A DNA stretch of 64,000 nt. Source: Martelella lutilitoris (GTDB lineage Bacteria; Pseudomonadota; Alphaproteobacteria; Rhizobiales; Rhizobiaceae). Shown here one piece after another: positions 20,317 to 64,000 of this stretch. The position numbers and the translations under genes are program-made. A model generated the notes under the pieces. That model was given only the letters and a program-made list of their open reading frames with translations. It made no database searches and was not told the origin of the DNA. Location of the stretch: positions 496,001-560,000 of the forward strand of contig NZ_VCLB01000001.1 in NCBI RefSeq assembly GCF_005924265.1, given 5' to 3'. The number at the start of each line of letters is the position of its first letter. Positions within the stretch are counted from its first letter, which is position 1.

Positions 20317-21111
20317 GTGACAACAGGGCAAGAGGCCGAGCTTGTAACCTATGAAATGCGCGGAAACGTCGCGCTTGTCGGGCTCAATCGTCCGGAAAAA
20401 CGCAATGCGATCAGCGACCGTTTCGTCGAAGCTCTGGCCGATGCGGTCGAGCGGGCGCGTCGCGAGGCAAAAGCCGGCGTGATCTTCGGCAATGGCAGGC
20501 ATTTCTGCGCCGGCCTCGATCTATCCGAACATGTCAAGAAGTCGGCCTTTGAGGGCGTCGAGGGTTCGCGGCGCTGGCATGAAGTCTTCGGCCGGATTGA
20601 ATTTGGCCCCATTCCCTGGTTTTGCGCGCTGCACGGCGCCGTTGTCGGCGGCGGGCTGGAGTTGGCATCGTCCGCACAGGTGCGCGTTGCCGACGAGACC
20701 ACGTTTTTCGCCCTGCCGGAAGGCCAGCGCGGCATTTTCGTTGGCGGCGGCGGATCGGTGCGCACCGCGCGGCTGATGGGCGTGGCGCGGATGACGGACA
20801 TGATGCTGACGGGCCGCTCGATCGATGCCGATACCGGCGAGCGCTGGAACCTCGCGCAATATGTGGTTCCCGCCGGCAAATCGGTTGAAAAGGCGCTGGA
20901 GCTTGCCGCGCGGGCGGCGACCAATGCTGAACTTTCCAACTACGCCGTCATCAACGTCCTGCCGCGCATGCCCGAGATGAGCCGCGACGACGGGCTTTTG
21001 ATGGAAAGCTTCATCTCGTCTTTTACCGCCACCTCGCCCGAGGCCGAGGAACGGCTGATCGCCTTCCTGGAAAAACGCGTCGCCAAGGTGGCCGCGCCCG
21101 GTGGAGGTTGA
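20317..21111 (+). CDS. ech: Crotonase-family hydroxycinnamoyl-CoA hydratase
   Basis: Enoyl-CoA hydratase/isomerase family, 264 aa, GTG start with AAGGAAG upstream. NRPEKRNAIS, HFCAGLDLSE (first oxyanion-hole strand, about 62-71) and HGAVVGGGLELA (about 106-117) are conserved. The first catalytic Glu is in LPEGQRG; the position of the second crotonase Glu appears to be Asp161 (MTDMMLTG), a shift worth noting for hydratase versus lyase chemistry. In this context it should hydrate feruloyl-CoA. With an SDR present and no vanillin dehydrogenase seen, hydration without C-C cleavage to vanillin is favoured, but this is inference. Confidence 0.82.
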   Translation: MTTGQEAELVTYEMRGNVALVGLNRPEKRNAISDRFVEALADAVERARREAKAGVIFGNGRHFCAGLDLSEHVKKSAFEGVEGSRRWHEVFGRIEFGPIPWFCALHGAVVGGGLELASSAQVRVADETTFFALPEGQRGIFVGGGGSVRTARLMGVARMTDMMLTGRSIDADTGERWNLAQYVVPAGKSVEKALELAARAATNAELSNYAVINVLPRMPEMSRDDGLLMESFISSFTATSPEAEERLIAFLEKRVAKVAAPGGG

Positions 21112-21112
21112 C

Positions 21113-21595
21113 ATGGGCCAGGAGCCGCGCCTTTCCCCGCAAATGACCGAAGATGTCGAGCTTGGCGAGCTCAACAATTCGCTCGGCTTTCTGGTACGCG
21201 TCGCGCAGGTGCGGGTCTATGATCAGTTCTACGAGCGTTTCGGCGCGGACGACCTGCGCCCGGGCGAGTTTTCCATGCTCTGGGTCATGCATCTCAATCC
21301 CGGCATCAAACAGGGCATTCTGGCGCAGACGCTGAGGATCAAGCCGGCCCACATGACCAAGACGGTCCGCCGTTTCGAGGATCAGGGCCTGATCGAGCGG
21401 GAAATCCCCGATCACGACCGCCGCTCCGTGCTGTTAAAGCTGACCGAAAAGGGCGAGGCCTTTGTCGCCGCCAACAAGCGCAATTTCTTCGGAGAGAACG
21501 CCTATAACACGCATGGCCTGAGCGCGGAGGAGGCGGAAACGCTTGCGCATCTGCTCAAGCGTTATGTCGGGCTGGAGACGGGGGAGCGCATATGA
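21113..21595 (+). CDS. MarR-family regulator, HcaR/CouR-like
   Basis: Dimeric winged-helix repressor of 160 aa. ATG 21113 has GGAGG five bases upstream, directly after the ech stop. The winged helix includes LAQTLRIKPAHMTKTVRRFE and the wing IEREIPDHDRRSVLLKLT with the conserved D-x-R. It lies inside the hydroxycinnamate operon and its end overlaps the amidohydrolase start (ATGA), so it is co-expressed with its probable targets. By analogy with characterised MarR regulators of this pathway it should be released by hydroxycinnamoyl-CoA. Not confirmed here. Confidence 0.85.
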   Translation: MGQEPRLSPQMTEDVELGELNNSLGFLVRVAQVRVYDQFYERFGADDLRPGEFSMLWVMHLNPGIKQGILAQTLRIKPAHMTKTVRRFEDQGLIEREIPDHDRRSVLLKLTEKGEAFVAANKRNFFGENAYNTHGLSAEEAETLAHLLKRYVGLETGERI

Positions 21596-22467
21596 ATTTC
21601 GATGAACTGATCGCCTTTGACGTCCATGTTCACGCCGAGGAGCCCTGCTGCACCCATCGCGATGACGGCTATATGGAATTCCAGGCCGGCATGGCGAAAT
21701 ATTTCAGGAACCCGGCCGGCCGGGACGGCATGCTGCCGACTGTGGAGGAGACCGCCGCCTATTTTCGCGAACGCAGGATCGGTTGCATCATCTTTCCCGT
21801 CGATGCCGAGCGCGAGACCGGTTTTCGCCGCTATTCCAACCATGAAGTGGCGGAGATTGCGGCGAAGAACAGCGATATCATGGTGCCGTTTGCTTCCATC
21901 GACCCGGCCAAGGGCAAGCTCGGAGTCCGCGAGGCGAAGAGCCTGATGCGCGACCACGGCGTGCGCGGCTTCAAGTTCCACCCGACCTATCAGGGCTTTT
22001 ATCCGAATGACCGGTCGGCCTACGGTCTCTACGAGGTGATCGAGGAAGAGGGCGGCATCGCGCTGTTTCACACCGGCCAGACCGGCGTCGGGTCCGGCAT
22101 GCATGGCGGCATGGGCATGCGGCTGAAATATTCCAACCCGATGTATCTCGACGACGTGGCGGTGGATTTTCCCGACCTGAAGATCATCGCCGCGCATCCG
22201 TCCTTTCCCTGGCAGGAAGAGGCGCTTGCCGTCGCTCAGCACAAGCCCAATGTCTATATTGACCTGTCCGGCTGGAGCCCGAAATACTTTCCCCCGATCC
22301 TGGTCAAATACGCCAATTCGCTGCTGAAGCACAAATTGCTGTTCGGCTCCGACTGGCCCGCCATCACGCCGGATCGCTGGCTCGCCGATTTCGAGAACAT
22401 AGACATCAAGGACGAGGTTCGCCCGCTGCTTCTGAAGGAGAATGCGAGGAAGCTTCTGGCAATGTAA
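21592..22467 (+). CDS. Amidohydrolase-2 family protein, candidate aryl beta-ketoacyl-CoA hydrolase
   Basis: TIM-barrel metal-dependent hydrolase of 291 aa. The metal ligands are visible in FDVHVH (His12 and His14), a GFKFHPTYQ strand, ALFHTGQT, IIAAHPSFPW and FGSDWP (Asp). It resembles the amidohydrolase/decarboxylase group (PF04909) rather than a thiolase. It is coupled to marR by an ATGA overlap in the hydroxycinnamate operon, and no thiolase gene is near. I infer that it releases vanillate or 4-hydroxybenzoate from the aryl-3-ketopropionyl-CoA, the step assigned to a gene of the A. fabrum cluster; alternatives are decarboxylation or lactone hydrolysis. Confidence 0.78.
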   Translation: MNFDELIAFDVHVHAEEPCCTHRDDGYMEFQAGMAKYFRNPAGRDGMLPTVEETAAYFRERRIGCIIFPVDAERETGFRRYSNHEVAEIAAKNSDIMVPFASIDPAKGKLGVREAKSLMRDHGVRGFKFHPTYQGFYPNDRSAYGLYEVIEEEGGIALFHTGQTGVGSGMHGGMGMRLKYSNPMYLDDVAVDFPDLKIIAAHPSFPWQEEALAVAQHKPNVYIDLSGWSPKYFPPILVKYANSLLKHKLLFGSDWPAITPDRWLADFENIDIKDEVRPLLLKENARKLLAM

Positions 22468-22512
22468 CGACCTGACGAAACACAGCATTCGGATTTTTTG
22501 GGAGGAGAATTC

Positions 22513-23607
22513 ATGAATCGCATCGAGAAATTCGCCGCATTGGCCGCCGTCGTGTTGATGGCCGCCGGAACCGCCGCTTCGGCGCGCGAACTGCGCCTTG
22601 CGCCTGGAGGGCCACCGGCTCACCCGGCCTATTACATGTATGAGCATTTCGCCGAAAACATCGCCGAAAACTCCGGCGGCGCCATGACCGGGCTGATCCT
22701 CGGTCCGGAAGTCGTGTCGCTGCCGCAGATGAAGGATGCGCTGCAGACCGGGCTGGTGGACGCCGGCAATGTCCTGCCGCTTTATTTCCCGGCCGACATG
22801 GAGGTCACCGGCATTGCCGGCGACCTGGCGCTGATTGGCCGCAACCCGCACGCCATGGCCATGGCCATGACCGAGTACGGCATGACCTGCGAGCCCTGCC
22901 AGGAGGAGTTCAAGAAGCTCGGCATGGTTTTCCTCGGCGCCGGTTCGTCCAATGTCTACAACCTGATCACGACCAGGCCCGTGCGCACCGCCGATGACCT
23001 GAAGGGCATGCGGCTGCGCACCGGCGGCGCGCCCTATTCGCGCTGGGCCGAGCATTTCGGTGCAACACCGGTCAATATCGGAGTCGGCGATACCTTCGAG
23101 GCGATGAGCCAGGGCACGATCGACGGCACCATGGCATCGACCGTTGACCTCTTGTCGTTCCGGCTGATCGATATTGCCAAGGACGTCACCATCGTCCCGA
23201 TCGGCACCTATCACGTGACCTCGAACTTCACGGCGGGTCTCAACACCTGGCGTTCGCTTTCCACCAAGGAGCGCGAAGAGATCGGCATGGCCGCCGCACG
23301 CGCCAATTTCGACCTGACCGACCGTTGGGCCTTCCAGCTGCCGTCGGCGGCGAAGGAGGCCCTGGCGAAAACCGATATCGAGGTGATTGAGCCGGATCCG
23401 GCCTTCCTTGAAGCCTCGGAAGCCTTTGCCGCTCAGGACGTGAAGGATCGCACCGCGCTTTCGGGCGAGGAGGCCGTCTACTTCACCGAACTGGTGGAAA
23501 AATGGACCGCGGTCGTCGATGAAGTCGGCAATGATCCAGACGCTCTGGCCAAGCGCATGATCGACGATGTCTGGAGCAAGATCGACTTTTCGACCTACGG
23601 CATGTGA
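22513..23607 (+). CDS. TRAP transporter substrate-binding protein (DctP type)
   Basis: Periplasmic binding protein of a tripartite ATP-independent transporter, 364 aa from ATG 22513, with GGGAGGAG upstream. A Sec signal peptide (residues 1-24, ending TAASA-RE) precedes the mature protein. GMRLRTGGAPYSRW holds the conserved Arg expected to bind the ligand carboxylate. Two closely spaced Cys (CEPC) are unusual. It follows the amidohydrolase by 45 bases, and the membrane subunits follow. A hydroxycinnamate or other aromatic acid ligand is inferred from context. Confidence 0.85.
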   Translation: MNRIEKFAALAAVVLMAAGTAASARELRLAPGGPPAHPAYYMYEHFAENIAENSGGAMTGLILGPEVVSLPQMKDALQTGLVDAGNVLPLYFPADMEVTGIAGDLALIGRNPHAMAMAMTEYGMTCEPCQEEFKKLGMVFLGAGSSNVYNLITTRPVRTADDLKGMRLRTGGAPYSRWAEHFGATPVNIGVGDTFEAMSQGTIDGTMASTVDLLSFRLIDIAKDVTIVPIGTYHVTSNFTAGLNTWRSLSTKEREEIGMAAARANFDLTDRWAFQLPSAAKEALAKTDIEVIEPDPAFLEASEAFAAQDVKDRTALSGEEAVYFTELVEKWTAVVDEVGNDPDALAKRMIDDVWSKIDFSTYGM

Positions 23608-23701
23608 TGCCTGAACTGGAGCGCGGCGGCCGGAATGGCCGTCGCGCTTCGTGGACGATGACGTTCGTCGTCGACCTCCTTACCCGCTCTGGAGCCCTTT
23701 G

Positions 23702-24208
23702 ATGACCGCACTCGTCCGGCTCGCCGCCGTGGTCGCGCGTATCCTGGCCTTCATCGGCGCCGCAGGCGTCGTCTTGATGATGGTCCATATCAGCCTCGAT
23801 GTCGCGCTGCGTAACCTGTTCCGCATCTCGGTCCCCGTTACCACGGAAATGGTTGCGCGCTACTACATGGTCGCCACCGCCTTCCTGCCGCTGTCCTGGC
23901 TCGAACTGCGTCGCGAGATGGTGTCCGTCGAACTCTTCGATTTCGCGCTCACCCGTCCCGTCCGCCGCGTCTCCGATGCACTGGTCTGCCTTCTCTCGGC
24001 GATCGTCTATGCAAGCCTTGCCTGGACCACGTGGAATTCGGCGCTCTCCAATTTCCGCTCCGGCACCTATGTGGAACTGGCCTCAATGAAGATGCCAGTC
24101 TGGCACAGCTACTTCCTGCCATCGGTCGGTTTTGGCATCGCGGCGCTGACCTGCCTGCTTCTGACCTTCCAGGACCTTCATCCCGCCGCATCGGAGGAAA
24201 CCGCATGA
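23702..24208 (+). CDS. TRAP transporter small membrane subunit (DctQ type)
   Basis: Four-helix membrane subunit of 168 aa from ATG 23702. Hydrophobic segments are at about residues 8-35, 50-70, 88-110 and 130-155. The W-x-x-x-R-R-E-M-V-S-V-E-L-F-D signature of DctQ proteins is present (WLELRREMVSVELFD). It ends in an ATGA overlap with the large subunit. A 94-base gap separates it from dctP, with no recognisable terminator. Confidence 0.85.
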   Translation: MTALVRLAAVVARILAFIGAAGVVLMMVHISLDVALRNLFRISVPVTTEMVARYYMVATAFLPLSWLELRREMVSVELFDFALTRPVRRVSDALVCLLSAIVYASLAWTTWNSALSNFRSGTYVELASMKMPVWHSYFLPSVGFGIAALTCLLLTFQDLHPAASEETA

Positions 24209-25509
24209 ACCCCGAGGTCGGATTTGTCGGCATTGGCGTCCTGATCGTCCTGCTTCTTCTGCGCGTGCCGGTGGCCATGGCGCTGATCGCCGTTTCCTTT
24301 GGCGGCATCACCGCGCTTCTCGGGGTCACGCCGGCCTTCGGCATCCTGTCGAACACGCCCTATTCCTTCGTCGCCAGCTGGACCATGTCGGCGGTGCCGA
24401 TGTTCCTGCTGATGGGCTTCGTCGCCTTTCATTCCGGGCTCACCGGCGGGCTCTTCGCCGCCGCCAAGGTGGTGTTGCGCCGCCTGCCGGGCGGGCTTGC
24501 GGTCTCGTCCATCTTTGCCTGTTCAGGCTTTGCCGCCGTTTCCGGCTCGTCGCTCGCCTGCGCCGCGGCCATGGGCCGGATCGCCATTCCGGAAATGGTC
24601 GCCGCCGGCTATCGTCCCTCGATTGCGGCCGGATCGATTGCCGCCGGCGGCACGATCGGCGCGCTGATCCCGCCCTCGATCCTGATGATCATCTACGGCG
24701 TCTTCGCCGAGACTTCGGTCACCCAGGTCTTCATCGGCGGCATCGGCATCGGCGTTGTCACCGCCATCGGCTATTGCCTCGTCATCATCGGCATCAGCCT
24801 CGTGCGGCCCGACCTCGTGCCGTCCCGTGACACGTCGCCGGTCAGCGCGGAAGGCCGCGCCGCCATTTTGCAGGTGATCCCGATCACGGTTCTTGTGCTC
24901 CTGATCTTCGGCGGCATGTTCTCAGGGCTCTTCACGGCAACGGAGGCCGGCGCGGTCGGCGCGCTCGGCACGATCTTGCTCGCGGCCGTCACCGGTCGGC
25001 TGACCAGGTGGAACATCACCCATTCGCTGATCGATACCGTCACCTCGACCGGCGCGCTGTTCATCATCGGCGTCGGCGCTGCGATGTTCACCCGCTTTCT
25101 CGGCATATCCGGCCTGTCGCATTTCCTCTCGTCCTTCGTCGCCGGCGCCGATCTCGGCTATTTCAAGCTGATGCTGATCATCGTGCTGATCTACCTGGCG
25201 CTCGGCACCTTCATGGAGCCCTTCGGCGCCATGCTGACGACGCTGCCGATCTTCCTGCCGATCCTGCGCGCGGAAGGCATCAGCCTCGTCTGGTTCGGCG
25301 TCGTCGTGGTGAAGATGCTGGAAATCGGCATGATCACGCCGCCGGTCGGCATGAACGTCTTCGTCATCAAGAACGTTGCCGGCAAATATGTTTCGATCGC
25401 GCAGGTCTTTGCCGGCGTCCTGCCCTTCATCATCATGGATCTCTTCGTGATTGCGCTGGTGATCGCCGTGCCTTCGGTGGTGATGTTCTTGCCGGATCTT
25501 TTGAAGTGA
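24205..25509 (+). CDS. TRAP transporter large permease (DctM type)
   Basis: Sodium- or proton-coupled channel subunit of 434 aa, about 12-13 hydrophobic segments. GGTIGALIPPSILMIIYG is the DctM family hallmark; ATEAGAVGALG and GMITPPVGMNVFVIKNV are conserved elevator-domain motifs. The start ATG 24205 overlaps the dctQ stop by four bases (ATGA). It is the last plus-strand gene of the hydroxycinnamate unit and converges on pcaQ 8 bases later, so the two transcripts meet with almost no spacer. Confidence 0.87.
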   Translation: MNPEVGFVGIGVLIVLLLLRVPVAMALIAVSFGGITALLGVTPAFGILSNTPYSFVASWTMSAVPMFLLMGFVAFHSGLTGGLFAAAKVVLRRLPGGLAVSSIFACSGFAAVSGSSLACAAAMGRIAIPEMVAAGYRPSIAAGSIAAGGTIGALIPPSILMIIYGVFAETSVTQVFIGGIGIGVVTAIGYCLVIIGISLVRPDLVPSRDTSPVSAEGRAAILQVIPITVLVLLIFGGMFSGLFTATEAGAVGALGTILLAAVTGRLTRWNITHSLIDTVTSTGALFIIGVGAAMFTRFLGISGLSHFLSSFVAGADLGYFKLMLIIVLIYLALGTFMEPFGAMLTTLPIFLPILRAEGISLVWFGVVVVKMLEIGMITPPVGMNVFVIKNVAGKYVSIAQVFAGVLPFIIMDLFVIALVIAVPSVVMFLPDLLK

Positions 25510-25517: not shown

Positions 25518-26450
25518 CTATGCCGGGCTGGACGGGCGGAAAAGGCCGTTTCCGGCGGCCTGCTCCAGCGCGGCGACGAAAAGCCGCTGCTCGGCCGTCG
25601 GCGTCACATTGGTGCGCATGGAAACCCCGACGGGGCCGCCGAGCAGGTCGTCATCAATGGCCAGCGTCGCCAGCGTTCCGTTTTCAAGCTCGTCGCGCAC
25701 CACACCCTCGGAAATGAACCAGATCGTGTCGGAATCGAGCACGACCCGGCGCCCGAAGGCGAGCGCCACGCTCTCGAAGGCAGGTTCCGGCTGGGCAAGC
25801 CCAAGTGCATGAAGATAGGCGGTGACCAGCGGCGCGATCACCGCGCCCGGCGGCGGCAGCATCAGCGGGTGGCTCCGCAGGGCTTCGGCATCCGGGGCAA
25901 GGCCGTCGAGCGGATGGCCGCGACGCACGACGGCAACGATCCGTTCCGAATAGAGCTGGCGGAAGGAGAGCCCCTCCATCAGCGTTGCCGAGGCCATGCG
26001 GCCGACGACCATGTCGAGCGCGCCCTCTCTCAACTGGGAAAGCAGCAGCCAGTTGGGGCCGGTGGTCACCCGCAGCATGCATTGCGGCGCACTGTGGCGA
26101 AGATGAAGCGCTGCACGCGGGACGAGCGCGGTGGAGGCCGTTGGCAGCGCGCCGACGACGAGGCGGGTGCGCGGCGGCCGGCCCTCGCGCACAAGGTCCT
26201 GGGCGCGAACGAGGTCCACCAGCGCCTGGCCGCCATATTGCTGGAAGGTCTTGCCCGCCTGCGTCAGCGTCAGCCGGCGGCCGGAGCGGTCAAACAGTTC
26301 GACCTGCAGGATCTCCTCCAGTTCGCGGATGGTTTTCGAGACGGCGGGTTGGCTGACATGAAGCGCGCTCGCGGCCCCGCTCAGCGAGCCGCGTCGCGCG
26401 GTTTCGAGAAAAGAGCGCAGATGACGCATGCGCAGGCGAGGATCGAGCAA
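25518..26450 (-). CDS. pcaQ: LysR-type pca operon activator PcaQ
   Basis: LysR-family activator of protocatechuate genes, beta-carboxy-cis,cis-muconate or a similar intermediate as likely co-inducer. TTG 26450 gives 310 aa beginning LDPRLRMRHLRSFLETA, matching PcaQ N-termini; ATG 26429 would give 303 aa and clip conserved residues. The helix-turn-helix is SLSGAASALHVSQPAVSKTIRELE. The effector domain carries VGALPTAS and MVVGRM, PcaQ-typical. It is divergent from pcaDC, and its box abuts the TTG start, suggesting autoregulation. Confidence 0.88.
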   Translation of the reverse strand: MLDPRLRMRHLRSFLETARRGSLSGAASALHVSQPAVSKTIRELEEILQVELFDRSGRRLTLTQAGKTFQQYGGQALVDLVRAQDLVREGRPPRTRLVVGALPTASTALVPRAALHLRHSAPQCMLRVTTGPNWLLLSQLREGALDMVVGRMASATLMEGLSFRQLYSERIVAVVRRGHPLDGLAPDAEALRSHPLMLPPPGAVIAPLVTAYLHALGLAQPEPAFESVALAFGRRVVLDSDTIWFISEGVVRDELENGTLATLAIDDDLLGGPVGVSMRTNVTPTAEQRLFVAALEQAAGNGLFRPSSPA

Positions 26451-26452
26451 GG

Positions 26453-26468
26453 TTAACCTATAGGTTAT
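26453..26468 (-). promoter_or_regulatory. PcaQ binding box
   Basis: On the minus strand the sequence reads ATAACC-TATA-GGTTAA, an exact match to the ATAAC-N4-GGTTAA type PcaQ box known from Sinorhizobium meliloti. It lies 3 bases from the proposed pcaQ start and 67 bases before the pcaDC start, in the position expected for activation of pcaDC. Confidence 0.8.
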
Positions 26469-26534
26469 GATACTTTCCCTTAAATATAATTTTTTGTGCG
26501 TCCTGGCTATGGCAAAACAGACTGGGAGGAACGC

Positions 26535-27710
26535 ATGATCATTCAAGCGAACGGTACTGCACTGCATGTGCGCCAGGACGGGCCTGAAAACGGCCGCGCG
26601 GTCCTATTCATCAATTCGCTGGGCACCGATCTCAGGGTCTGGGACCGGCTCCTGCCGCTCCTGCCGAAAGGACTTCGGCTCGTCCGTTATGATAAGCGCG
26701 GCCATGGTCTCTCCGGCCTTGGTCCCGCCGATACCGGTCTTTCCATCGAAACCCTTGCCGATGACGCGATCGCCCTTTGCGAGGCTCTGAAGCTTGAGGA
26801 CGTGACGCTGGTCGGGCTTTCGATCGGTGGTCTGATCGCCCAGGCCGTCACGCTGAAGCGTCCCGACCTTGCGCGCGCCATGGTGCTGATGGATACGGCA
26901 ATGCGCATCGGCACAGCCGAAATGTGGGGCGATCGCATCGCAGCGCTTGAGGCCGGCGGCATTGCCGCGATCTCGGAGGCGGTTCTGGCCCGTTGGTTCG
27001 CACCGGAATTCCTTGCGTCATCCGATGCCGCCATGTGGCGGGCCATGCTGGAACGCACCCCGCTCGAAGGCTACATCGCCTGCTGCAGGGCGCTGGCCGG
27101 CGCGGATTACACCTACCGCGCGGCGGACGTGAAATGTCCGGTGCTGGCGCTTTGCGGCGCGCTTGATGGTTCGACGCCGCCCGATCTGGTGCGCGCGACA
27201 GCCGAAGCCTACGGCGCGCCGTTCCATCTGATTGACAACGCCGGGCACCTGCCGCCCGTGGAACAGCCCGACGCCGTCGCGAAGCTTCTGGCAAGTTTCC
27301 TGAGCGGGACGGCTGACAGTGTTGCCGGCGGCCGCCATGGAATCGGCATGCGGGTCCGTCGCTCGGTTCTGGGCGATGCCCATATCGATCGGGCCGAGGC
27401 CGCCAAGACGACGCTCGACGAGGCCTTCCAGACGCTGATCACCGAAAGCGCCTGGGGCACGGTCTGGGCCTCGGACGCGATCAGCCGGCGGGAGCGCTCG
27501 ATGCTGACGCTGGCGCTGCTCGCCGCAACCGGCAATTTCGAGGAAATCCCGATGCATATCCGCGCGACGGCCCGTACCGGGGCCAGCCGGCAGGACGTGG
27601 TGGAGGCTTTCCAGCATGTTGCCATCTATGCCGGCGTGCCACGCGCCAATCATGCCTTGAAACTGGCAAAGGCTGCCTTTGCCGAAATGGAGGAAAATGA
27701 CGATGACTGA
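26535..27710 (+). CDS. pcaDC: Fused 3-oxoadipate enol-lactonase / 4-carboxymuconolactone decarboxylase
   Basis: Single 391-aa product carrying two consecutive steps of the protocatechuate branch. Residues about 1-258 are an alpha/beta hydrolase (oxyanion region FINSLGTDLRVWD, nucleophile elbow GLSIGG, catalytic His in DNAGHLPPVEQP). Residues about 270-391 form a carboxymuconolactone decarboxylase domain (TLALLAATGNFEEIPMHIRA). GGGAGGA precedes ATG 26535. In rhizobia pcaD and pcaC are usually separate; this layout resembles PcaL of actinobacteria. The domain order is enol-lactonase first, the order of the usual pcaD-pcaC gene pair. Confidence 0.9.
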   Translation: MIIQANGTALHVRQDGPENGRAVLFINSLGTDLRVWDRLLPLLPKGLRLVRYDKRGHGLSGLGPADTGLSIETLADDAIALCEALKLEDVTLVGLSIGGLIAQAVTLKRPDLARAMVLMDTAMRIGTAEMWGDRIAALEAGGIAAISEAVLARWFAPEFLASSDAAMWRAMLERTPLEGYIACCRALAGADYTYRAADVKCPVLALCGALDGSTPPDLVRATAEAYGAPFHLIDNAGHLPPVEQPDAVAKLLASFLSGTADSVAGGRHGIGMRVRRSVLGDAHIDRAEAAKTTLDEAFQTLITESAWGTVWASDAISRRERSMLTLALLAATGNFEEIPMHIRATARTGASRQDVVEAFQHVAIYAGVPRANHALKLAKAAFAEMEENDDD

Positions 27711-28431
27711 TCTGGGACCACTGATCCCGCGAAACCGGATGGTTCATCCCCCGGCCTATACGCCGGGCTACAAGACCTCGGTTGCCCGCTCGCCGAGCCT
27801 GCCGCTCCTGTCACTGGAAAGCGGCCCCTCGGAGGAGACCGGGCCGATGTTCGGCCACAACCAGCTCGGCGCGCTGGACAACAACCTGATCCTCAACTGG
27901 ACGAAGGGCGAGGCGCCCGCCGTCGGCGAGCGGATCCTGGTCTATGGCCGCATCATGGACGAGCGCGGCAAGCCGGTGCCCGAAACGCTGATCGAGATCT
28001 GGCAAGCCAATGCCGGCGGTCGCTACCGCCACAAGAAGGATACGTATTTTGCCCCGCTCGACCCGAATTTCGGCGGTTGCGGGCGCACGATCACCGATGC
28101 TGAGGGCAATTACCAGTTCCTTACCATCCGGCCCGGCGCCTATCCCTGGCCCAATGGCGGCAATGACTGGCGGCCGATGCATATCCACGTCTCGGTCTAC
28201 GGCCACAGCTTCGGCCAGCGCCTGATTACCCAGATGTATTTCGAGGGCGATCCGCTGATCCCGCTCTGTCCGATTGCCAACACCGTGCGCCAGCGCGGCG
28301 ATCTCGACGGCCTTGTCGCGCCGCTCGACATGAACATGTCGCGCCCGCATGACTTCCTGGCCTACAAGTTCGACATCGTGCTGCGCGGCCGTCGCCAGAC
28401 CATGTTCGAGAACAAGATGGAGGGGATGTGA
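27703..28431 (+). CDS. pcaH: Protocatechuate 3,4-dioxygenase beta subunit
   Basis: Iron-binding subunit of the intradiol dioxygenase that opens protocatechuate to 3-carboxy-cis,cis-muconate. The product is 242 aa from ATG 27703, nine bases after GGAGG; an ATG two codons earlier is too close to that site. The Fe(III) ligands are visible: Tyr in GGRYRHKKDTY, Tyr in GAYPWPNGG, and the two His of MHIHVSV. The GQRLITQMYFEGDPL segment is conserved. The start overlaps the pcaDC stop, and pcaG follows after one base. Confidence 0.95.
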   Translation: MTDLGPLIPRNRMVHPPAYTPGYKTSVARSPSLPLLSLESGPSEETGPMFGHNQLGALDNNLILNWTKGEAPAVGERILVYGRIMDERGKPVPETLIEIWQANAGGRYRHKKDTYFAPLDPNFGGCGRTITDAEGNYQFLTIRPGAYPWPNGGNDWRPMHIHVSVYGHSFGQRLITQMYFEGDPLIPLCPIANTVRQRGDLDGLVAPLDMNMSRPHDFLAYKFDIVLRGRRQTMFENKMEGM

Positions 28432-28432
28432 T

Positions 28433-29032
28433 ATGGTCCAGAAACTCGAAAATCTGCAGGAAACCGCATCCCAGACCGCCGGTCCCTACGTCCATATCGG
28501 ACTGATGCCGACCTATGCCGGCAATCCGGGTTCCTACGAGCAGGAAATCGGCGTCAGCCCCATTTCGGAAGGGGCGAAGGGCGAGATCATCGAAATCCGC
28601 GGTCAGGTGATCGACGGCACAGGCGGAGCGATCCGCGACGCCATGCTGGAAAGCTGGCAGCCGGACGCCGCCGGCATCTTTCCCGGCCAACCGGGCGCGG
28701 ATCCGGCGGTTTCCGGTCTCTGCCGTTTCGCAGCCGACGCCGACAGTGGCGAGTTTGTGCTGAAAACGGTCAAGCCCGGCGCCTTCAAGGGCAGGGGCGG
28801 CTCGCACAACGCGCCGCATATCTCGCTGTGGATCGCCGCGCGCGGCATCAATATCGGGCTCAACACCCGCATCTATTTCGAGGACGAGGATAATGCCAAT
28901 GACCGCATCCTCAATGCCGTCGAACTGAAGCACCGGGTGCCGACGCTGATCGCCAAGAAGACCGGAGACGGGCAATACCGTTTCGACGTTCGCCTGCAGG
29001 GCGATGCCGAGACGGTGTTTCTGGATATCTGA
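28433..29032 (+). CDS. pcaG: Protocatechuate 3,4-dioxygenase alpha subunit
   Basis: Non-iron partner of PcaH; the two form a hetero-oligomer. The product is 199 aa. It starts MVQKLENLQETASQTAGPYVHIGL, the typical PcaG opening, and keeps the dioxygenase fold segments IEIRGQVIDGTGGAI and NAPHISLWIAARG but not the Tyr/His iron set. The ATG lies one base after the pcaH stop, so the subunits are translationally coupled. Confidence 0.94.
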   Translation: MVQKLENLQETASQTAGPYVHIGLMPTYAGNPGSYEQEIGVSPISEGAKGEIIEIRGQVIDGTGGAIRDAMLESWQPDAAGIFPGQPGADPAVSGLCRFAADADSGEFVLKTVKPGAFKGRGGSHNAPHISLWIAARGINIGLNTRIYFEDEDNANDRILNAVELKHRVPTLIAKKTGDGQYRFDVRLQGDAETVFLDI

Positions 29033-29331
29033 GATCGGTTGCCGGCAGGAGCTCTGGCCATGCGTCCCTGGGGCCTTGCCGGCCACCCCGCGCCCGTTGC
29101 CTTCTATGCAGGAACAAGTCCGGCATAATGGCTAAGTGAACGCAAGGCCTCTCGGCGGCAGGACCGCCCTCCCACGTGCGTCATCTTCGGGTGTGACCCG
29201 AGGATCCAGTCATCTGTGTCACGGAGCGTGTTGGCGGACCTTGCATCCGGTATCGAAGCGGTTGAAGACAGGGGCCGGTTCCAGGCGCCCACCGGGGACT
29301 CGGCCGCTTGCAAACGAGAGGAGCACCACGC
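29033..29331. other. pcaG-pcaB gap carrying a REP-like palindrome
   Basis: About 300 bases without a credible gene, unusual inside a pca operon. Around 29180-29208 there is a CTTCGGGTGTGACCCGAGGAT palindrome variant related to the repeats at 53.3 kb. The rest shows no motif I recognise. Confidence 0.5.
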
Positions 29332-30384
29332 TTGACCATATCGGCATTCGAACATCCCTGGCTCGGCGGCTATTTCGGCGACCGGGAAACCGTCGCGATC
29401 TGGTCGCCGGAGCGGCAGTTGGGCCACATGCTGGCCTTCGAGGCGGCCTGGAGCCGGGCGATGGGCGCATGCGGGCTCTGTGATGCCGCAGAGGCCGAAA
29501 GGGCGGCCAAAGCAATCGAGGCGGCAGAAATTCCGCCCGAAGCGCTGAGGGCAGGCATGGCCGCAGACGGCGTGCCGGTGCCGGCGCTTCTTGCCATCTC
29601 ACGCAAGAGCGCGCCCGATGCCGCCCTGCACAAGGGCGCGACGTCGCAGGATGTGGTCGACAGCGCGCTTGCCATGACCTTGCGGGAGACGACGGCGCTG
29701 TTTCTCGACCGTCTGGCAGAGCTTGACGCAGCCCTGCAGGCGCTCGAGCGCCTGTTCGGCGATGCGAAGCTCATGGGCCGCACGCGCATGCAGGCGGCGG
29801 CCGATATCAAGGCGCGCGAGCGGATCGTCACATGGCGGCTGCCGCTCGCGGACCATGCCGATCGGCTGAGAGCCCTTGGGCCGCGCGTCGAAAAGGTGCA
29901 GATCGGCGGCGCTGCCGGCGACCGTGCGTCGCTTGGCGAAAAGGCGGAGGCGATGGTCGCCGCCGTTGCCGCGGAACTTGGACTTCGCCCCACCGGTAAA
30001 GCCTGGCACGCCATGCGCGAGGGCATTGCCGATTATGCCTCGGTGCTGTCGCTGATTTCCGGAACGCTCGGCAAGATGGGGCAGGACGTGGCGTTGATGG
30101 CCCAGCAGGGCATTGACGAGATCGTCCTTTCCGGCGGCGGCGGGTCGTCCGCCATGCCGCACAAGAACAATCCGGTCCTGGCCGAACTCCTGGTCACGCT
30201 TGCGCGCTTCAACGCCGTGCAGGTCTCCGGCCTGCATCATGCGCTCATCCATGAGCAGGAGCGTTCGGGCGCGGCCTGGAACCTTGAATGGATGATCCTG
30301 CCGCAGATGGCGCTTGCAACCGGGCGGTCTCTTTCGGCGGCGCTTGAGCTTTGCGGAAAGGTCAGGCGGATCGGCAAGGGCTGA
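29332..30384 (+). CDS. pcaB: 3-carboxy-cis,cis-muconate cycloisomerase
   Basis: Fumarase/aspartase-superfamily enzyme cyclising 3-carboxymuconate to 4-carboxymuconolactone. TTG 29332 gives 350 aa (MTISAFEHPWLGGYFGD); AGAGGAG lies eight bases upstream. The superfamily signature GGSSAMPHKNNPVL is present (about residues 270-283), as are the KGATSQDVVDSALA and RTRMQAA regions. Many PcaB proteins are slightly longer at the C-terminus. It completes the operon pcaDC-H-G-B; pcaIJ and pcaF for the later steps are not in the window. Confidence 0.92.
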   Translation: MTISAFEHPWLGGYFGDRETVAIWSPERQLGHMLAFEAAWSRAMGACGLCDAAEAERAAKAIEAAEIPPEALRAGMAADGVPVPALLAISRKSAPDAALHKGATSQDVVDSALAMTLRETTALFLDRLAELDAALQALERLFGDAKLMGRTRMQAAADIKARERIVTWRLPLADHADRLRALGPRVEKVQIGGAAGDRASLGEKAEAMVAAVAAELGLRPTGKAWHAMREGIADYASVLSLISGTLGKMGQDVALMAQQGIDEIVLSGGGGSSAMPHKNNPVLAELLVTLARFNAVQVSGLHHALIHEQERSGAAWNLEWMILPQMALATGRSLSAALELCGKVRRIGKG

Positions 30385-59401: not shown

Positions 59402-60304
59402 TCAGGCGGTCAGGTTTGTCGGCTCGGCAAGCCCGCGACGGCGACAGGCAGCCGTCAGCGTGTTGGCCAGCAGGCAGGCGATCGTCATCGGGCCGACGCC
59501 GCCCGGCACCGGGGTAATGGCGCCGGCGACCGTACTTGCCGCAGCAAAATCCACATCGCCCGTCAGCCGCGTCTTGCCCGGTCCGCGCTCCGGCGCGTCG
59601 ATGCGGTTGATGCCGACATCGATCACGCTCGCGCCGGGCTTGATCCAGTCGCCCTTTATCATCTCGGGCCTGCCGACGGCGGCGACCACGATATCGGCCC
59701 GGCTGACGACGGCCTTCAGGTGGCGGGTCTGGGAATGAGCGATGGTGACCGTGGCGTTGGCGGCAAGCAGCAATTGCGCCATCGGCTTGCCGACAATGTT
59801 GGAGCGGCCGATGACGACGGCTTCAAGGCCGGAGAGGTCGCCGTGTTCGGCCTGCAGCATCATCAGGCAGCCGAGCGGGGTGCACGGCACCATCGCCTTC
59901 TGTCCGGTCGCCAGAAGGCCGACATTCTCGATGTGAAAACCGTCGACATCCTTCGCCGGGTCGATCGCCGCCAGAACCTCGGCTTCGGCTATATGACCGG
60001 GCAGCGGCAATTGCACGAGAATGCCGTCGACCGCGTCATCGGCGTTCAGCCGGTCGACGAGGGCGAGAAGATCGGCGGCGGCGATCTCTTCGGGCAGGCG
60101 GTGTTCGAAGGAGTTCATGCCCGCCTCGACGGTCTGTCTGTGCTTGGCGCGGACATAGACTTCGGATGCGGGGTCATCGCCAACCAGAACCACGGCAAGG
60201 CCCGGCGTCACGCCATGTTCGGCCTTCATCCGTGAGACGTGGCAGGCCACCGCGCCGCGAATGCGGGCGGCAAAGGTCTTTCCGTCAATGATCTTCGCCG
60301 TCAT
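59402..60304 (-). CDS. folD: Bifunctional methylenetetrahydrofolate dehydrogenase/cyclohydrolase
   Basis: NADP-linked interconversion of 5,10-methylene-, 5,10-methenyl- and 10-formyl-THF, cytoplasmic. The product is 300 aa. [15 protein letters not shown] has the catalytic Lys (K-x-K variant, K-H-R here), [21 protein letters not shown] and [15 protein letters not shown] are conserved, and [10 protein letters not shown] is the C-terminal block. It lies 36 bases after yciI and in the same direction, so it looks like the last gene of the ligAB operon. That would supply C1-folate turnover to a THF-dependent O-demethylase. Confidence 0.93.
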
Positions 60305-60340
60305 CTCGTCCTCCCGTCGGCGTTTCCCGTGCGAGCCGGT

Positions 60341-60673
60341 TCAGTTTGCCGGAAGGCGCGGGCTCATCGGCTCGCTGATCCGCCCGGCCTGGAACGTATC
60401 GGGCAGGGGGGTCAGTTCGGTGGTCGCGACGATGCCTGCCTTGCGAAAGGGGTCGCCTTCGGCAAAGGCTTCGGCATCGGCGCGGTTTTTTGCTTCCAAT
60501 ATGCCGAAATTGCCGCAGGAGCGGCCCTCGTCATCGACAAGCGCCGAGCCGATCAGCACCGAGACCAGTCCCTTGCCGCCGGAAGCGACCCATTCGCGGT
60601 GCTGCGGGCGGATTTTTTCGCGCAACTCATCGACGTCCGGATTGTTCAGGCAGCGCATCAGGAAAAACGCCAT
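60341..60673 (-). CDS. YciI-family protein
   Basis: Muconolactone isomerase-like ferredoxin fold, 110 aa from ATG 60673, coupled to the ligB stop by an ATGA overlap. MAFFLMRCLNNPDVDELREKIRPQH opens the domain; the conserved His is followed by a DEGRSCGNFGILEA strand and FAEGDPF. Possible roles are lactone or ring-fission product handling in the meta-cleavage route. No precise reaction can be assigned. Confidence 0.8.
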   Translation of the reverse strand: MAFFLMRCLNNPDVDELREKIRPQHREWVASGGKGLVSVLIGSALVDDEGRSCGNFGILEAKNRADAEAFAEGDPFRKAGIVATTELTPLPDTFQAGRISEPMSPRLPAN

Positions 60674-61512
60674 CACGCATTCTCCAGCACGACCATGCCG
60701 GCGCCGGTGAGCGAAGCGGGGGCAAAATAATGCCTGTGCTTCATCTCCACATGCGGGTTCATCGCCGCCCGCATCACCAGCCACATGATCAGTTCCGCGC
60801 CCTCCGAGCCAAACTGGTCGACATAGTCCTTGCGGCTCATGTTCCGGTATTTCTCGTAGTCATTGGCGATGCCATCAAGCCAGGCCTCGTCGGCCTCGCG
60901 GTTGATGAAGCCGGCGCGGCTGCCCTGAAGCTGGTGCGAAAGCCCGCCCGTGCCCATGATCACCACGCGCTCATCGCCGGGGAAGCTTTCGATCGCCTTG
61001 CGCAGCACCTTGCCCATTTCCCAGCAGCGCTGCGGGGTGGGGATCGGGTACTGGATGGTGTTGACCCAGATCGGCACCACCTTGACCGGCCAGTGTTCGG
61101 GACGGCCGAAGAACAGTTCCAGCGGCACCTGAAGGCCGTGGTCAACCTCGATCTCGCGGCAGACCAGCGGGTCGAAATGGTTTTCCACCATCGTGTCGAC
61201 GATATGCCATGAGAGATCGGCGGCGCCCTCGAAATCGGGCACGGCGCGCGGCCCCCAGCCCTCGTCCACCGGCTTGTAGCTGTCGGCGACGCCGATGGCG
61301 AAGGTCGGCACGCGGTCGAGGAAGAATGTGTTGCCATGGTCGTTGAAGATGACGACGGCGACATCGGGCTTCTTCTCCGCCATCCACTTCTTGCCCGGGA
61401 TATAGCCGTCGAAGAAGGGCTTCCAGTCGGGCGTTTCGGCAAGTCCCTTGTCGAGCGCCACGCCGATGGAGGGCACGTGGCTGGTGCCCACGCCGCCAAT
61501 GATTTCGGCCAT
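60673..61512 (-). CDS. ligB: Protocatechuate 4,5-dioxygenase-type extradiol dioxygenase, beta (catalytic) subunit
   Basis: Class III Fe(II) ring-opening dioxygenase of 279 aa, close in pattern to LigB of Sphingobium SYK-6. SHVPS gives His12; NDHGN gives the second His (about residue 59); DEGWGPRAVPD and MGTGGLSHQLQGSRAGF are the conserved blocks; GSEGAELIMWLVMR carries the Glu ligand. The start (ATG 61512) overlaps the ligA stop (TAATG). Gallate or 3-O-methylgallate are alternative substrates. Confidence 0.88.
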   Translation of the reverse strand: MAEIIGGVGTSHVPSIGVALDKGLAETPDWKPFFDGYIPGKKWMAEKKPDVAVVIFNDHGNTFFLDRVPTFAIGVADSYKPVDEGWGPRAVPDFEGAADLSWHIVDTMVENHFDPLVCREIEVDHGLQVPLELFFGRPEHWPVKVVPIWVNTIQYPIPTPQRCWEMGKVLRKAIESFPGDERVVIMGTGGLSHQLQGSRAGFINREADEAWLDGIANDYEKYRNMSRKDYVDQFGSEGAELIMWLVMRAAMNPHVEMKHRHYFAPASLTGAGMVVLENA

Positions 61513-61853
61513 TACGCCTTCCCCAGTCTTGTCTTGAGAAATTCCTCCTGGCTCATGCCGGCCTGCGCCGCGCCGATCTCGGCCATGCTGGCCGGGTCGA
61601 TCGCCGCGATCTTCAGGATGAAGAAGAGATTGCCGCCAAGGGAGATCATCTTGTGCCAGTCGCGGCTCATGACCGCCTGTTTCTCCGCCGCGCCGAGGCC
61701 GAAACTGTCGAGAAAGGCCGCCTCGTCGGCGATGAAGGCCGCGCGGTTTTCCGGCTTGCCGAGCGACATCGCCATCTTGTTCATCCGATAGCCGTTTTTC
61801 GAACGTTCGCGTTCGAAGAGCGGGGTTTCGGGAATTTCGAGCACGTCAGACAT
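61512..61853 (-). CDS. ligA: Protocatechuate 4,5-dioxygenase-type alpha subunit
   Basis: Small helical subunit of the extradiol dioxygenase, 113 aa from ATG 61853 with AAGGAGG upstream. The GYRMNKMAMSLGKPENRAAFIADEAAFLDSFGL region is the LigA-domain pattern, and the C-terminal EEFLKTRLGKA is usual. It is shorter than SYK-6 LigA. It overlaps the alpha/beta hydrolase by 8 bases and ligB by one, so all three are co-translated. Confidence 0.86.
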   Translation of the reverse strand: MSDVLEIPETPLFERERSKNGYRMNKMAMSLGKPENRAAFIADEAAFLDSFGLGAAEKQAVMSRDWHKMISLGGNLFFILKIAAIDPASMAEIGAAQAGMSQEEFLKTRLGKA

Positions 61854-62556
61854 TGAGCTCCTCCTTATGCTGATCGAGCCAGCCGGTAATGGCGGCAACC
61901 GTTTCCGCCGGGCGCTCCACGGGCATGAAATGCCCGGCGCCGTCGATCACTTGAACCTCGGCCTTGTCGAGTTGCTCTGCGATCTCGCGATGCTGCTTTT
62001 CCGGTGACCAGCCGTCCTGCGCGCCGGTCAGCAACAGCACCGGACAGGTGATGGCGGGAATGTAGTCCATCGCGTTCGGGCGCTCCATGATGGCGCGGAT
62101 CTGGCGGGCATGAACGTCAGGCCCGGCCTTGAGCACCATGTCCGTCAGGTCGTCGACAAGCGCCGGGTCCGGCGTGATCCCCTGCGCGAGCATCGGCGGC
62201 AGCCATTCGGCGGCAAGGGCGGCCATGTCCTCGTAGCCGCGGGCGATCTTGGCGAGCCGCTTGGGCGCCTCGTTCTCTCCCACGCCGTCATGTCCGGTAT
62301 TGGCCAGAATGAGGCCGCGCATGCGCTCCGGCGCCTGGTGCGCCATTTCCATGGCAACCCGCCCGCCCAGGGAATGGCCGATGGGGATCAGCGGCCCGTC
62401 ATTCTCGCGCAGGAGACAGGCCGCCATGCTCTCGATGGTCGGTTCGCGGGTGATGTCGGCATTGGCCACGGCGAGCCATTCCGGCGCGGCCTGGGCAACA
62501 GCGCGCCACACGCGGGCATCCGACACCAGGCCGGGGATGAGAAGCAATGTGGTCAT
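61846..62556 (-). CDS. Alpha/beta hydrolase, first gene of the lig operon
   Basis: Product of 236 aa from ATG 62556 (GGGAGGG upstream). LLLIPGLVSDARVW has the oxyanion region, IGHSLGGRVAMEMA the nucleophile Ser, and DGAGHFMPVERP the catalytic His. It heads the operon hydrolase-ligA-ligB-yciI-folD. Role could be hydrolysis of a ring-fission product, a lactone or an aromatic ester such as a gallate ester; the sequence does not decide. Confidence 0.85.
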   Translation of the reverse strand: MTTLLLIPGLVSDARVWRAVAQAAPEWLAVANADITREPTIESMAACLLRENDGPLIPIGHSLGGRVAMEMAHQAPERMRGLILANTGHDGVGENEAPKRLAKIARGYEDMAALAAEWLPPMLAQGITPDPALVDDLTDMVLKAGPDVHARQIRAIMERPNAMDYIPAITCPVLLLTGAQDGWSPEKQHREIAEQLDKAEVQVIDGAGHFMPVERPAETVAAITGWLDQHKEELNV

Positions 62557-62640
62557 GATCGGCCCTCCCAACGCCATCGTGAATACATTTTTGGAGGATT
62601 AGCGAAAAATTGGGGGGAAATCAACCAAGAATCGCCTATA

Positions 62641-62650
62641 ATGTATACAT
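62641..62650. promoter_or_regulatory. GntR operator copy 1 (ATGTATACAT)
   Basis: Perfect 10-base palindrome, 84 bases upstream of the hydrolase start on the minus strand. It lies in a 16-base arm (62641-62656) that is repeated inverted at 62709-62724. Confidence 0.7.
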
Positions 62651-62714
62651 AGATCGATCGAAAGACGCTTGAGGCCTTGCTGACGAGCCGGATGATCTTG
62701 CCCTGATCCGATCT

Positions 62715-62724
62715 ATGTATACAT
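62715..62724. promoter_or_regulatory. GntR operator copy 2 (ATGTATACAT)
   Basis: Same palindrome, 50 bases before the gntR start. Its centre is 74 bases from copy 1, close to seven helical turns. Confidence 0.7.
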
Positions 62725-62774
62725 TAGGCGTTCACGGCCCGGTCCATCGGGTCGCATCAGGTCCGGAGGTTGGA

Positions 62775-63530
62775 ATGGACAGGCAAACGACGGCGAAGAC
62801 CCACACGATGAGGGCGCTGGTGGAGCTGCGCAAGCGGATCCTCGACGGCGCCATTCCGGGCGGTACGCGCCTGTTCGAGGTGGCGTTGGCCGACGACCTT
62901 CAGATCTCGCGCACGCCGGTGCGCGAGGCGATGTCGCGGCTGGCGGAGGAGGGGCTTTTGGAGCGCGCCCGCAGCGGCGGCTTTCTGGTGCGCAGCTTTG
63001 CCTATGCCGATGTGCTGGACACGATCGAGCTGCGCGGCGTGCTGGAGGGCACGGCGGCGCGGCTGGCGGCCGAACGCGGGGCGAGCGAGAAGGCGCTGAA
63101 GGAGATTTCCGCCATTGTCCGCGCGCTTGACGGCTGTGTCGGCGTTCATCCCGACGAGGTGGACTTCGAGACCTATTCGGAACTCAACAGCGAGTTTCAC
63201 GATGCGCTTGCCGCCCTGCCGCGCTCGGCCACGCTGGAGCGCGAGCTGGCCCGCGCCAAGCAATTGCCCTTTGCCTCGCCCTCTGCCTTCCTGCCGGACA
63301 AGACCAAGCTTTCCGACTTCCGCCGCTCGCTGCAGGTGGCCCAGGAGCAGCACCGCGAGATCGTCACCGCGATTGCCCAGCGGCAGGGATCGCGAGCGGA
63401 GGCTCTGGCGCGCGAACATGCCTGCGCGGCGCGGCGGAACCTCGAATATATCTTCTCCAAGGACCGTAACCTCGTCAGCGCGGTGCCCGGCCTTGCGCTC
63501 GTGGCGCCGAACGACCAAGCGCTGACCTGA
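62775..63530 (+). CDS. GntR-family (FCD) regulator of the lig/ligM module
   Basis: Repressor of 251 aa from ATG 62775, five bases after GGAGG. The N-terminal winged helix has IPGGTRLFEVALADDLQISRTPVREAMSRLAEEGLLER, the GntR signature; the C-terminal FCD domain carries metal/ligand residues such as ELNSEFHDAL and EQHREIVTAI. It lies between the lig operon and the ligM-like gene, with operators in front of all three transcription units, so it should control them and itself. Confidence 0.87.
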   Translation: MDRQTTAKTHTMRALVELRKRILDGAIPGGTRLFEVALADDLQISRTPVREAMSRLAEEGLLERARSGGFLVRSFAYADVLDTIELRGVLEGTAARLAAERGASEKALKEISAIVRALDGCVGVHPDEVDFETYSELNSEFHDALAALPRSATLERELARAKQLPFASPSAFLPDKTKLSDFRRSLQVAQEQHREIVTAIAQRQGSRAEALAREHACAARRNLEYIFSKDRNLVSAVPGLALVAPNDQALT

Positions 63531-63605
63531 GCGCGTGCCAGTATCGCGAGAATTTGCAGGCGGGGTGTTTTTCCGCTTGCATTCTTGAGGCCGAATTGCA
63601 AATGT

Positions 63606-63615
63606 ATGTATACAT
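63606..63615. promoter_or_regulatory. GntR operator copy 3 (ATGTATACAT)
   Basis: The palindrome is exact, and it extends into an 18-base palindrome AAATGTAT-GT-ATACATTT (63600-63617). It is 28 bases before the ligM-like start. A related ATGTATACCC lies inside that gene at 63725-63734. Confidence 0.7.
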
Positions 63616-63642
63616 TTCTTACGAGCTGGGAGGAGCGAGAAA

Positions 63643-64000
63643 GTGTCGGGTCAAAGCCTATCGACTGTAATGAAGGGGTTTTCAAACCCTGTAGAGCTTT
63701 TGAGGAATTCGCGTTCGGGGATTTATGTATACCCCGTCGTGGCGCCGGAATTTTCCAACTGGCGCAGTGAGCAGATGGCATGGCGCCACACCGCCGTGCT
63801 GTTCGACCAGACCCATCACATGGACGAACTGATCGTCGAGGGTCCGGATGCCGAGGCGTTTCTCGCCTATGTCGGGATCAATGCGTTTTCGAATTTCGAT
63901 CTCAACCGCGCCAAGCATTTCGTGCCGGTCACGCCCGCGGGCCATGTCGTGGGCGACATGATCATCTTTCGCGAGCGTGAGGACAAGTTCGTGCTCGTCG
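63643..64000 (+). CDS. LigM/DesA-like tetrahydrofolate-dependent aromatic O-demethylase, 3' end cut by window edge
   Basis: GcvT-like enzyme expected to move a methoxy methyl group from vanillate, syringate or 3-O-methylgallate to tetrahydrofolate. GTG 63643 lies seven bases after GGGAGGAG. The visible 119 residues include NPVELLRNSRSG, VVAPEFSNWRSEQMAW, AVLFDQTHHMDEL and GINAFSN, all close to LigM and DesA of Sphingobium (family knowledge). The methyl-accepting partner folate would be processed by FolD or MetF-type enzymes; folD is in the facing operon. Substrate specificity cannot be told from this part. Confidence 0.85.
   Translation, partial: MSGQSLSTVMKGFSNPVELLRNSRSGIYVYPVVAPEFSNWRSEQMAWRHTAVLFDQTHHMDELIVEGPDAEAFLAYVGINAFSNFDLNRAKHFVPVTPAGHVVGDMIIFREREDKFVLV

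Follow-up and report, generated by a model that had tools for sequence, protein, structure and literature searches.

Three described systems come closest to the locus considered here, which lies at the right-hand end of a 64,000-nucleotide stretch of the Martelella lutilitoris genome (the window; contig positions 496001-560000, from a genome of 4.45 Mb in 18 contigs) and combines a gene for a predicted tetrahydrofolate (THF)-dependent O-demethylase (ligM), a GntR regulator gene and a ring-cleavage cassette, abH-ligA-ligB-yciI-folD. In Agrobacterium fabrum, Atu1418, Atu1419 and Atu1420 correspond to metF, a GntR repressor and a LigM-type demethylase; according to the sections of PMC7797058 consulted here, Atu1419 recognises ATGTATACAT and dissociates from it in the presence of methylene-THF, protocatechuate (PCA) goes to pca genes, and neither LigAB nor a hydrolase, YciI or FolD is mentioned there as part of the regulon. 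The mga/gal syringate pathway of Pseudomonas sp. NGC7, as far as described in the part of PMC12314914 consulted, comprises a GntR repressor, separate LigA-like and LigB-like subunits, an alpha/beta hydrolase of 4-carboxy-2-hydroxy-6-methoxy-6-oxohexa-2,4-dienoate (CHMOD) and galB/C/D; its LigAB-type enzyme and hydrolase act on 3-O-methylgallate (3MGA), and deletion of the hydrolase gene mgaC abolished growth on syringate, with 2-pyrone-4,6-dicarboxylate (PDC) being formed. In Sphingobium SYK-6, LigM is tied to one-carbon (C1) folate genes in the ligM-metF-ligH operon (PMC6888825, excerpt).

The Martelella locus shares with A. fabrum, as portrayed in those sections, an orthologous repressor in which all checked contact residues are identical, the same 10-bp operator ahead of metF, gntR and ligM, and a degenerate second site within ligM; unlike in A. 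fabrum, its ring-cleavage operon with folD bears the operator too. Whereas the NGC7 pathway, compared here by description only, relies on a VanAB-type demethylase with formaldehyde and on the SnoaL-like MgaD, Martelella has LigM with folate, no VanA_C match in the genome, and a YciI-family protein in the operon. The excerpted SYK-6 account differs in its MarR-type DesR and ligH, against a GntR repressor, folD and a purU-like gene in Martelella, whose LigB also belongs to another clade. A literature search at the level of titles and abstracts gave no recognisable account of such a cassette under an Atu1419-type regulator, or of fusions between abH and LigA; the parts are known and their combination looks new. 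Taken as a whole, the evidence leans slightly towards a one-carbon-responsive demethylation and ring-opening regulon, in which LigAB would act on a methoxylated ring, abH as a methylesterase and YciI as an isomerase.

The closest solved structure to the GntR protein was PDB 6z74 (E 8.7e-87), the Atu1419 entry (PMC7797058, sections consulted), and 147 of 243 residues (60.5%) were identical to Atu1419 in the alignment. Among the contact residues listed in those sections, 17 of the 17 checked were the same, comprising seven that contact DNA (9, 31, 34, 44, 45, 46 and 49) together with ten belonging to the citrate/effector pocket and zinc site (86, 133, 137, 141, 169, 175, 183, 192, 214 and 221). 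Judged by its sequence, the window protein is an Atu1419-type repressor and an orthologue of Atu1419, and by analogy its effector would probably be methylene-THF. Exact copies of ATGTATACAT numbered four in the whole genome, all at this locus, and the reversed control pattern was absent; moreover, the stretch of genome reaching past the window end (L004) held 12 sites with at most two mismatches, versus 1.35 expected. The additional degenerate copy within ligM lies 119 bp from the exact ligM site, and a comparable one within atu1420 is reported in the consulted sections of PMC7797058. That a single predicted GntR regulator serves the locus, as the earlier note had claimed, is well supported, because the four exact operators of the genome precede abH, gntR, ligM and the metF-like gene.

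The same association was observed among relatives, for which the best 80 of 558 confirmed LigM loci were surveyed, so that all counts describe near relatives; many of these contigs end early, and 56 of the 80 had 5 kb on both sides. There were 77 exact copies of ATGTATACAT in 82 loci (the 80 relatives, L004 and L153), versus a mean of 0.2 for 29 palindromes of the same composition. The 200 bp ahead of ligM contained an exact operator in 27 of 33 loci whose GntR protein was at least 55% identical, in 4 of 32 with identity between 44% and 55%, and in 5 of the 15 loci without a GntR over the threshold (36/80 overall). The cassette was divergent from gntR in nine relatives (L027, L028, L030-L034, L063 and L077), with an exact operator in the abH-gntR interval of five of them, and it lay downstream of ligM on the same strand in L055, L071, L078 and L081. 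As a separate observation, the regulon may be wider in two Pseudooceanicola, because exact ATGTATACAT copies are also found there ahead of a gene of TRAP type and an enoyl-CoA hydratase gene from the hydroxycinnamate cluster (L032:868 and 2865; L033:1053 and 3039).

Pfam and NCBIfam confirmed the arrangement read earlier, in which hydrolase-ligA-ligB-yciI-folD faces a ligM-type gene (Table 1). The five cassette genes likely form a single operon, since abH to yciI overlap (8 nt for abH/ligA, 1 nt for ligA/ligB and 1 nt for ligB/yciI) and folD starts 36 nt past the yciI stop; the yciI start was placed by comparing 15 sequences.

Table 1. Features of the ligM locus and of its surroundings. Positions are those of the window, or of genome stretches L004 and L005 where indicated (window position is L004 position + 58999).
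Feature	Position	Strand	Basis or remark
folD, methylene-THF dehydrogenase/cyclohydrolase, final gene of abH operon	59402..60304	-	Pfam; NCBIfam NF010785, 499 bits > 396
yciI, YciI-family protein, 110 aa, proposed ring-cleavage-product isomerase	60341..60673	-	Pfam YCII
ligB, class III extradiol dioxygenase catalytic subunit, separate abH-linked clade	60673..61512	-	Pfam/NCBIfam, tree
ligA, dioxygenase small subunit	61512..61853	-	Pfam/NCBIfam; sole PF07746 match in genome
abH, alpha/beta hydrolase, proposed methylesterase of ring-cleavage product	61846..62577	-	GHSLGG ... QD.WSP ... GAGHF pattern
Operator ATGTATACAT, exact	62641..62650		64 bp ahead of abH open reading frame start
Operator ATGTATACAT, exact	62715..62724		ends ~50 bp ahead of likely gntR start
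gntR, GntR/FCD regulator, predicted Atu1419 orthologue	62775..63530 (start ~62775)	+	Pfam/NCBIfam, PDB 6z74
Operator ATGTATACAT, exact	63606..63615		37 bp ahead of ligM
ligM, predicted THF-dependent vanillate/3MGA O-demethylase	63643..64000, cut by window end	+	NCBIfam NF047885, PDB
Degenerate operator, 8/10	63725..63734		within ligM
purU-like gene	L004 9470-10318		beyond window, 3.4 kb past ligM end; Pfam
Operator ATGTATACAT, exact	L004 10487		beyond window, ahead of metF-like gene
metF-like gene	L004 10531-11451		beyond window, 4.5 kb past ligM end; PDB 7xg9
TRAP-type transporter	L004, after ligM		beyond window; named by eye
VOC-type extradiol dioxygenase	L005:3423-4394		beyond window, between galB- and galC-like genes; best PDB 9wgj, E 6.7e-103
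pcaQ (-), pcaDC, pcaH, pcaG, pcaB (+), PCA 3,4-cleavage route	25518..30384	-/+	NCBIfam
Short-chain dehydrogenase/reductase, acyl-CoA synthetase (-), enoyl-CoA hydratase, MarR (+), amidohydrolase-like protein, TRAP-type transporter (+)	17507..25509	-/+	first four by NCBIfam

The ligM product, with 119 residues inside the window and 470 at full length in L004, passed the NCBIfam LigM equivalog NF047885 (624 bits; cut-off 580) and failed DesA (555 bits; cut-off 800), so that the demethylase formerly described as ligM/desA-like can be named LigM. Its PDB matches were 5x1i and 5tl4 (E about 5e-160), and it is assigned by homology to the family of THF-dependent vanillate/3MGA O-demethylases. Among the best 80 of 558 loci, the closest named relative was that of Martelella radicis (97% identity). 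Alignment A1 held eight rows from 17 LigM matches, loci with internal stops (L010, L012, L013) and paralogues below 46% identity being omitted. Two side observations concern this gene: a second LigM paralogue (41-45% identity), possibly a syringate-type demethylase, was found near ligM in L047, L085, L088 and L104, and a metagenome-assembled genome titled Klebsiella pneumoniae (L096), probably mislabelled or contaminated, carried a LigM 76% identical to that of the window.

The one-carbon gene set of the locus is fuller than folD alone and includes the purU-like and metF-like genes. The metF-like protein matched PDB 7xg9, a 5,10-methylenetetrahydrofolate reductase (MTHFR) which we take to be the SYK-6 enzyme (E 6.8e-50), matched zero Pfam families and scored far under the NCBIfam MetF cut-off (21.9 vs 293.7 bits). 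The SYK-6 MTHFR favours methyl-THF oxidation, according to the part of PMC13001107 consulted, where entry 7xg9 is not named. Two folD copies exceeded the Pfam cut-off in the genome, in addition to one weak sub-threshold match; the second copy, which the earlier note had proposed to look for, lies on contig C12 and is 57% identical to that of the locus. A second purU-like gene (52% identical) was also observed about 5 kb from it (L006:3529-4413 and 9754-10653).

Across the 80 loci, GntR genes were counted in 65, the TRAP large subunit in 42, metF in 29, abH in 20, purU in 16, ligA and yciI in 13 each, ligB in 12 and folD in two. All 13 ligA-bearing loci had abH, and 11 had yciI, the remaining two (L063, L081) ending within the cassette. 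The folD gene was present only in L027 (Martelella) and L028 (Pseudooceanicola nanhaiensis), both cassette-bearing; leaving aside L063, L071 and L081, which end too near to judge, it occurred in two of ten ligA loci. The link between demethylation and folate drawn in the earlier note therefore stands, and more firmly than the note had proposed, through one folate-type repressor with four operators and the three C1 genes at the locus, folD, metF-like and purU-like, while folD as its defining element was rejected, being the least conserved part of the locus (2/80) whereas metF and purU recur; nor is this folD a sole copy kept where ligAB is lacking, since the genome holds two and the locus copy was found only with the ligAB cassette. 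The layout had also been considered unusual outside sphingomonads, which did not hold: the cassette stood beside ligM in records titled Martelella, Pseudooceanicola, Actibacterium, Rhizobium, Pseudorhodobacter, Rhodobacter and Rhodobacteraceae; a sphingomonad was named in none of the 80 titles, some of which lack a genus.

The genome contained one LigA match and three LigB-family matches. LigA and LigB are encoded separately, not in the fused B-A architecture of DesB/GalA. A phylogenetic analysis of LigB was performed on 68 proteins from class and phylum samples after removal of duplicates, with SYK-6 LigB and DesB added, and rows were labelled by neighbours within 4.5 kb: 37 had ligC or ligI, 17 abH or yciI, 12 neither and two both. 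Sixteen of the 17 abH/yciI rows, including that of the window, formed one clade (support 100/100, branch 0.9) with zero ligC/ligI rows, and SYK-6 LigB and DesB fell outside it; the branch uniting ligC/ligI rows had support 89/58. The tree program flagged long branches, including L126, DesB and L148, and one clade member (L129, extended as L209) had a neighbour with a weak partial LigC match (28% identity, 40% covered). On this tree, the window LigB is placed in a distinct clade linked to abH.

These results bear on one alternative, in which LigAB would act as a protocatechuate 4,5-dioxygenase and the locus would encode an ordinary meta-cleavage pathway for vanillate via PCA; the earlier note had spoken of meta-cleavage genes. 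LigB is indeed homologous to SYK-6 LigB (E 1.2e-86), LigA resembles PCA LigA, and LigM-type enzymes convert vanillate to PCA, as stated in the part of PMC8091115 consulted. However, LigA scored below the NCBIfam PCA_ligA cut-off (95.4 < 108.6 bits), LigB lies outside the groups associated with ligC/ligI, a pcaQ-DC-H-G-B cluster is present in the same window, and only distant matches were found in the genome for ligI (one; 25% identity, 35.6 bits) and ligC (nine; 23-36% identity). The LigI reference was confirmed by its PDB 4d8l match (E 4.7e-104), whereas the LigC reference was named from neighbours only. With the pca cluster at hand and no close ligI or ligC, PCA 4,5-cleavage was rejected as the principal explanation and appears quite improbable; the ring-cleavage branch is probably not a PCA meta-cleavage, and vanillate-derived PCA is likely handled by the pca cluster. 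Of the genes that the earlier note proposed to seek further to the right, metF was encountered in a metF-like form, and neither ligC nor ligI had a close match genome-wide.

About 20 kb away (L005), PIG-L, RraA and PrpF proteins were found, named galB-, galC- and galD-like from their families and gene order, together with a VOC dioxygenase. With these, the genome has, in terms of presence only, the NGC7-type complement: a LigAB-type enzyme of two subunits, a hydrolase of the alpha/beta fold and enzymes like galB/C/D. The galB/C/D-like genes, like the absence of a close ligI match, would also suit a LigAB that is a gallate dioxygenase, with LigM making gallate from 3MGA (a conversion reported for LigM-type enzymes in the consulted part of PMC8091115), LigAB yielding 4-oxalomesaconate (OMA), and abH and YciI as auxiliaries. 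Since no methyl ester arises from gallate, the linkage of abH to every ligA locus and the fusions described below are unexplained by that proposal, and LigB scored 308 bits against the cut-off of 412 of the gallate dioxygenase equivalog NF009904; it is regarded as unlikely. In genome G082 the order was vanA-gntR-vanB, transport genes (named by eye) and yciI-ligB-ligA-abH-galC-galB-galD-DUF1932, and the cassette therefore also accompanies a VanAB-type demethylase, like its functional counterpart in NGC7. In genome G423, galC-galB-galD adjoin abH-ligA-ligB; the stretches read from both genomes had no ligI or ligC match. An NGC7-like mga locus was looked for in L200 and nothing was found.

The abH protein had named esterases as its best PDB matches (4uhc, E 4.5e-22). 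Single frames of 345-350 residues carrying both a hydrolase and a LigA domain were found as complete open reading frames in L055, L077, L078 and L081 (Pfam LigA, E 3e-29 to 7e-26; best alpha/beta-hydrolase model, E 1e-15 to 5e-14), and L063 showed the same fusion as far as its contig end; all five came from metagenome-assembled genomes, and abH and LigA were unfused in L071. Such fusions generally indicate that the joined proteins cooperate. The fusions would also suit any hydrolase of a ring-fission product, and the fold family includes the C-C hydrolase 1c4x (E 2.3e-4), so that abH might instead be a C-C meta-cleavage-product hydrolase freeing a small acid; this is very improbable, given the esterase matches and the cassette-linked galB/galC/galD-like set, which in known pathways serves an uncleaved C7 tricarboxylate. 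The predicted structure of YciI (predicted local distance difference test score 96) had HI0828 and TftG as its closest folds; the modelled fold is compatible with an isomerase, without proving it.

In the favoured reading, LigM would demethylate a methoxylated aromatic acid with THF as the methyl acceptor, the MetF-like enzyme would oxidise methyl-THF to methylene-THF, FolD would convert this to formyl-THF, and the PurU-like enzyme would release formate, with flux presumably running in this direction. Methylene-THF would free the Atu1419-type repressor, resulting in joint derepression of ligM, metF, gntR and the divergent abH-ligA-ligB-yciI-folD operon. PCA from vanillate would exit via the pca cluster of the window, while LigAB would open a ring still bearing its methoxyl group, most likely 3MGA; abH would hydrolyse the resulting methyl ester (CHMOD), YciI would isomerise the acid to OMA, and the galB/galC/galD-like genes 20 kb off would complete the route.

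Several observations weigh against this regulon. The source of 3MGA is unexplained, because a single LigM/DesA-type match reached E <= 1e-60 in the genome (five of eight first-look candidates scored), VanA_C had no match there, and the Novosphingobium LigM is inactive on syringate (PMC8091115, part consulted); the window LigM may accept syringate, or the cell may import 3MGA. LigM itself may convert 3MGA to gallate, and the VOC dioxygenase beside the galB/galC-like genes could be the enzyme feeding them. This protein may be a class I gallate or 3MGA dioxygenase; of the 80 LigM loci, 28 had a homologue, 23 of these lacking ligB locally, and in 12 of the 16 galB-bearing loci the homologue lay no more than 300 bp from galB. 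In the LigB tree, the 17th abH/yciI row (L126/L208) lay outside the clade, toward DesB, in spite of its abH, and a second LigAB of L197 with abH (33% identity) was placed among ligC/ligI rows. Seven of the 80 loci had abH without ligA or ligB (L048, L057, L059, L066, L074, L088, L099), accompanied by yciI in L088 and L099, and they therefore speak against abH being strictly dependent on LigAB. Regarding regulation, L028, L032, L033 and L034 had only operators with one or two mismatches between abH and gntR, the purU-like gene had no exact operator upstream, and the effector is known for Atu1419 only.

Further genes were noted in the window and beyond it. Those next to the pca cluster likely serve hydroxycinnamate side-chain breakdown; the amidohydrolase-like protein among them had no NCBIfam match and, like the TRAP-type transporter, was named by eye. 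Beyond the window, L004:12143-19852 encodes TctC, TctA (by eye), two Amidohydro_2 proteins, a Rieske protein, and then GFA and ferredoxin-reductase-like proteins (by eye), a set presumably resembling AibH1H2-type oxygenases. A LigJ-like identity was first suspected for the amidohydrolases and was dropped, the best PDB entries of the first one (6m2i/8ful, E about 8e-62) being named just 'Amidohydrolase'. A DUF1932 6-phosphogluconate-dehydrogenase-like protein (L005:1489-2460) recurs in ligAB/OMA clusters, including L139, L141, L142, L145, L146, L153, L201, L208 and L210, among others.

The more specific proposal that one-carbon load governs ring opening, with a repressor reading methylene-THF rather than an aromatic compound, and with an additional route for the unstable ester that arises from 3MGA ring fission, consisting of a hydrolase coupled to LigA (fused to it in some relatives) and a YciI isomerase, is put forward tentatively, as possible rather than probable. 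If true, the state of the folate pool would control whether lignin-derived rings are opened in these bacteria, tying methoxyl removal to the disposal of the methoxyl carbon, and the cassette would represent a family of 3MGA (syringyl lignin) enzymes outside sphingomonads. The hydrolase-LigA fusions predict a direct hand-over of the ring-fission ester, which would otherwise cyclise to PDC, and a YciI protein would gain a role in an aromatic pathway in addition to that of TftG.

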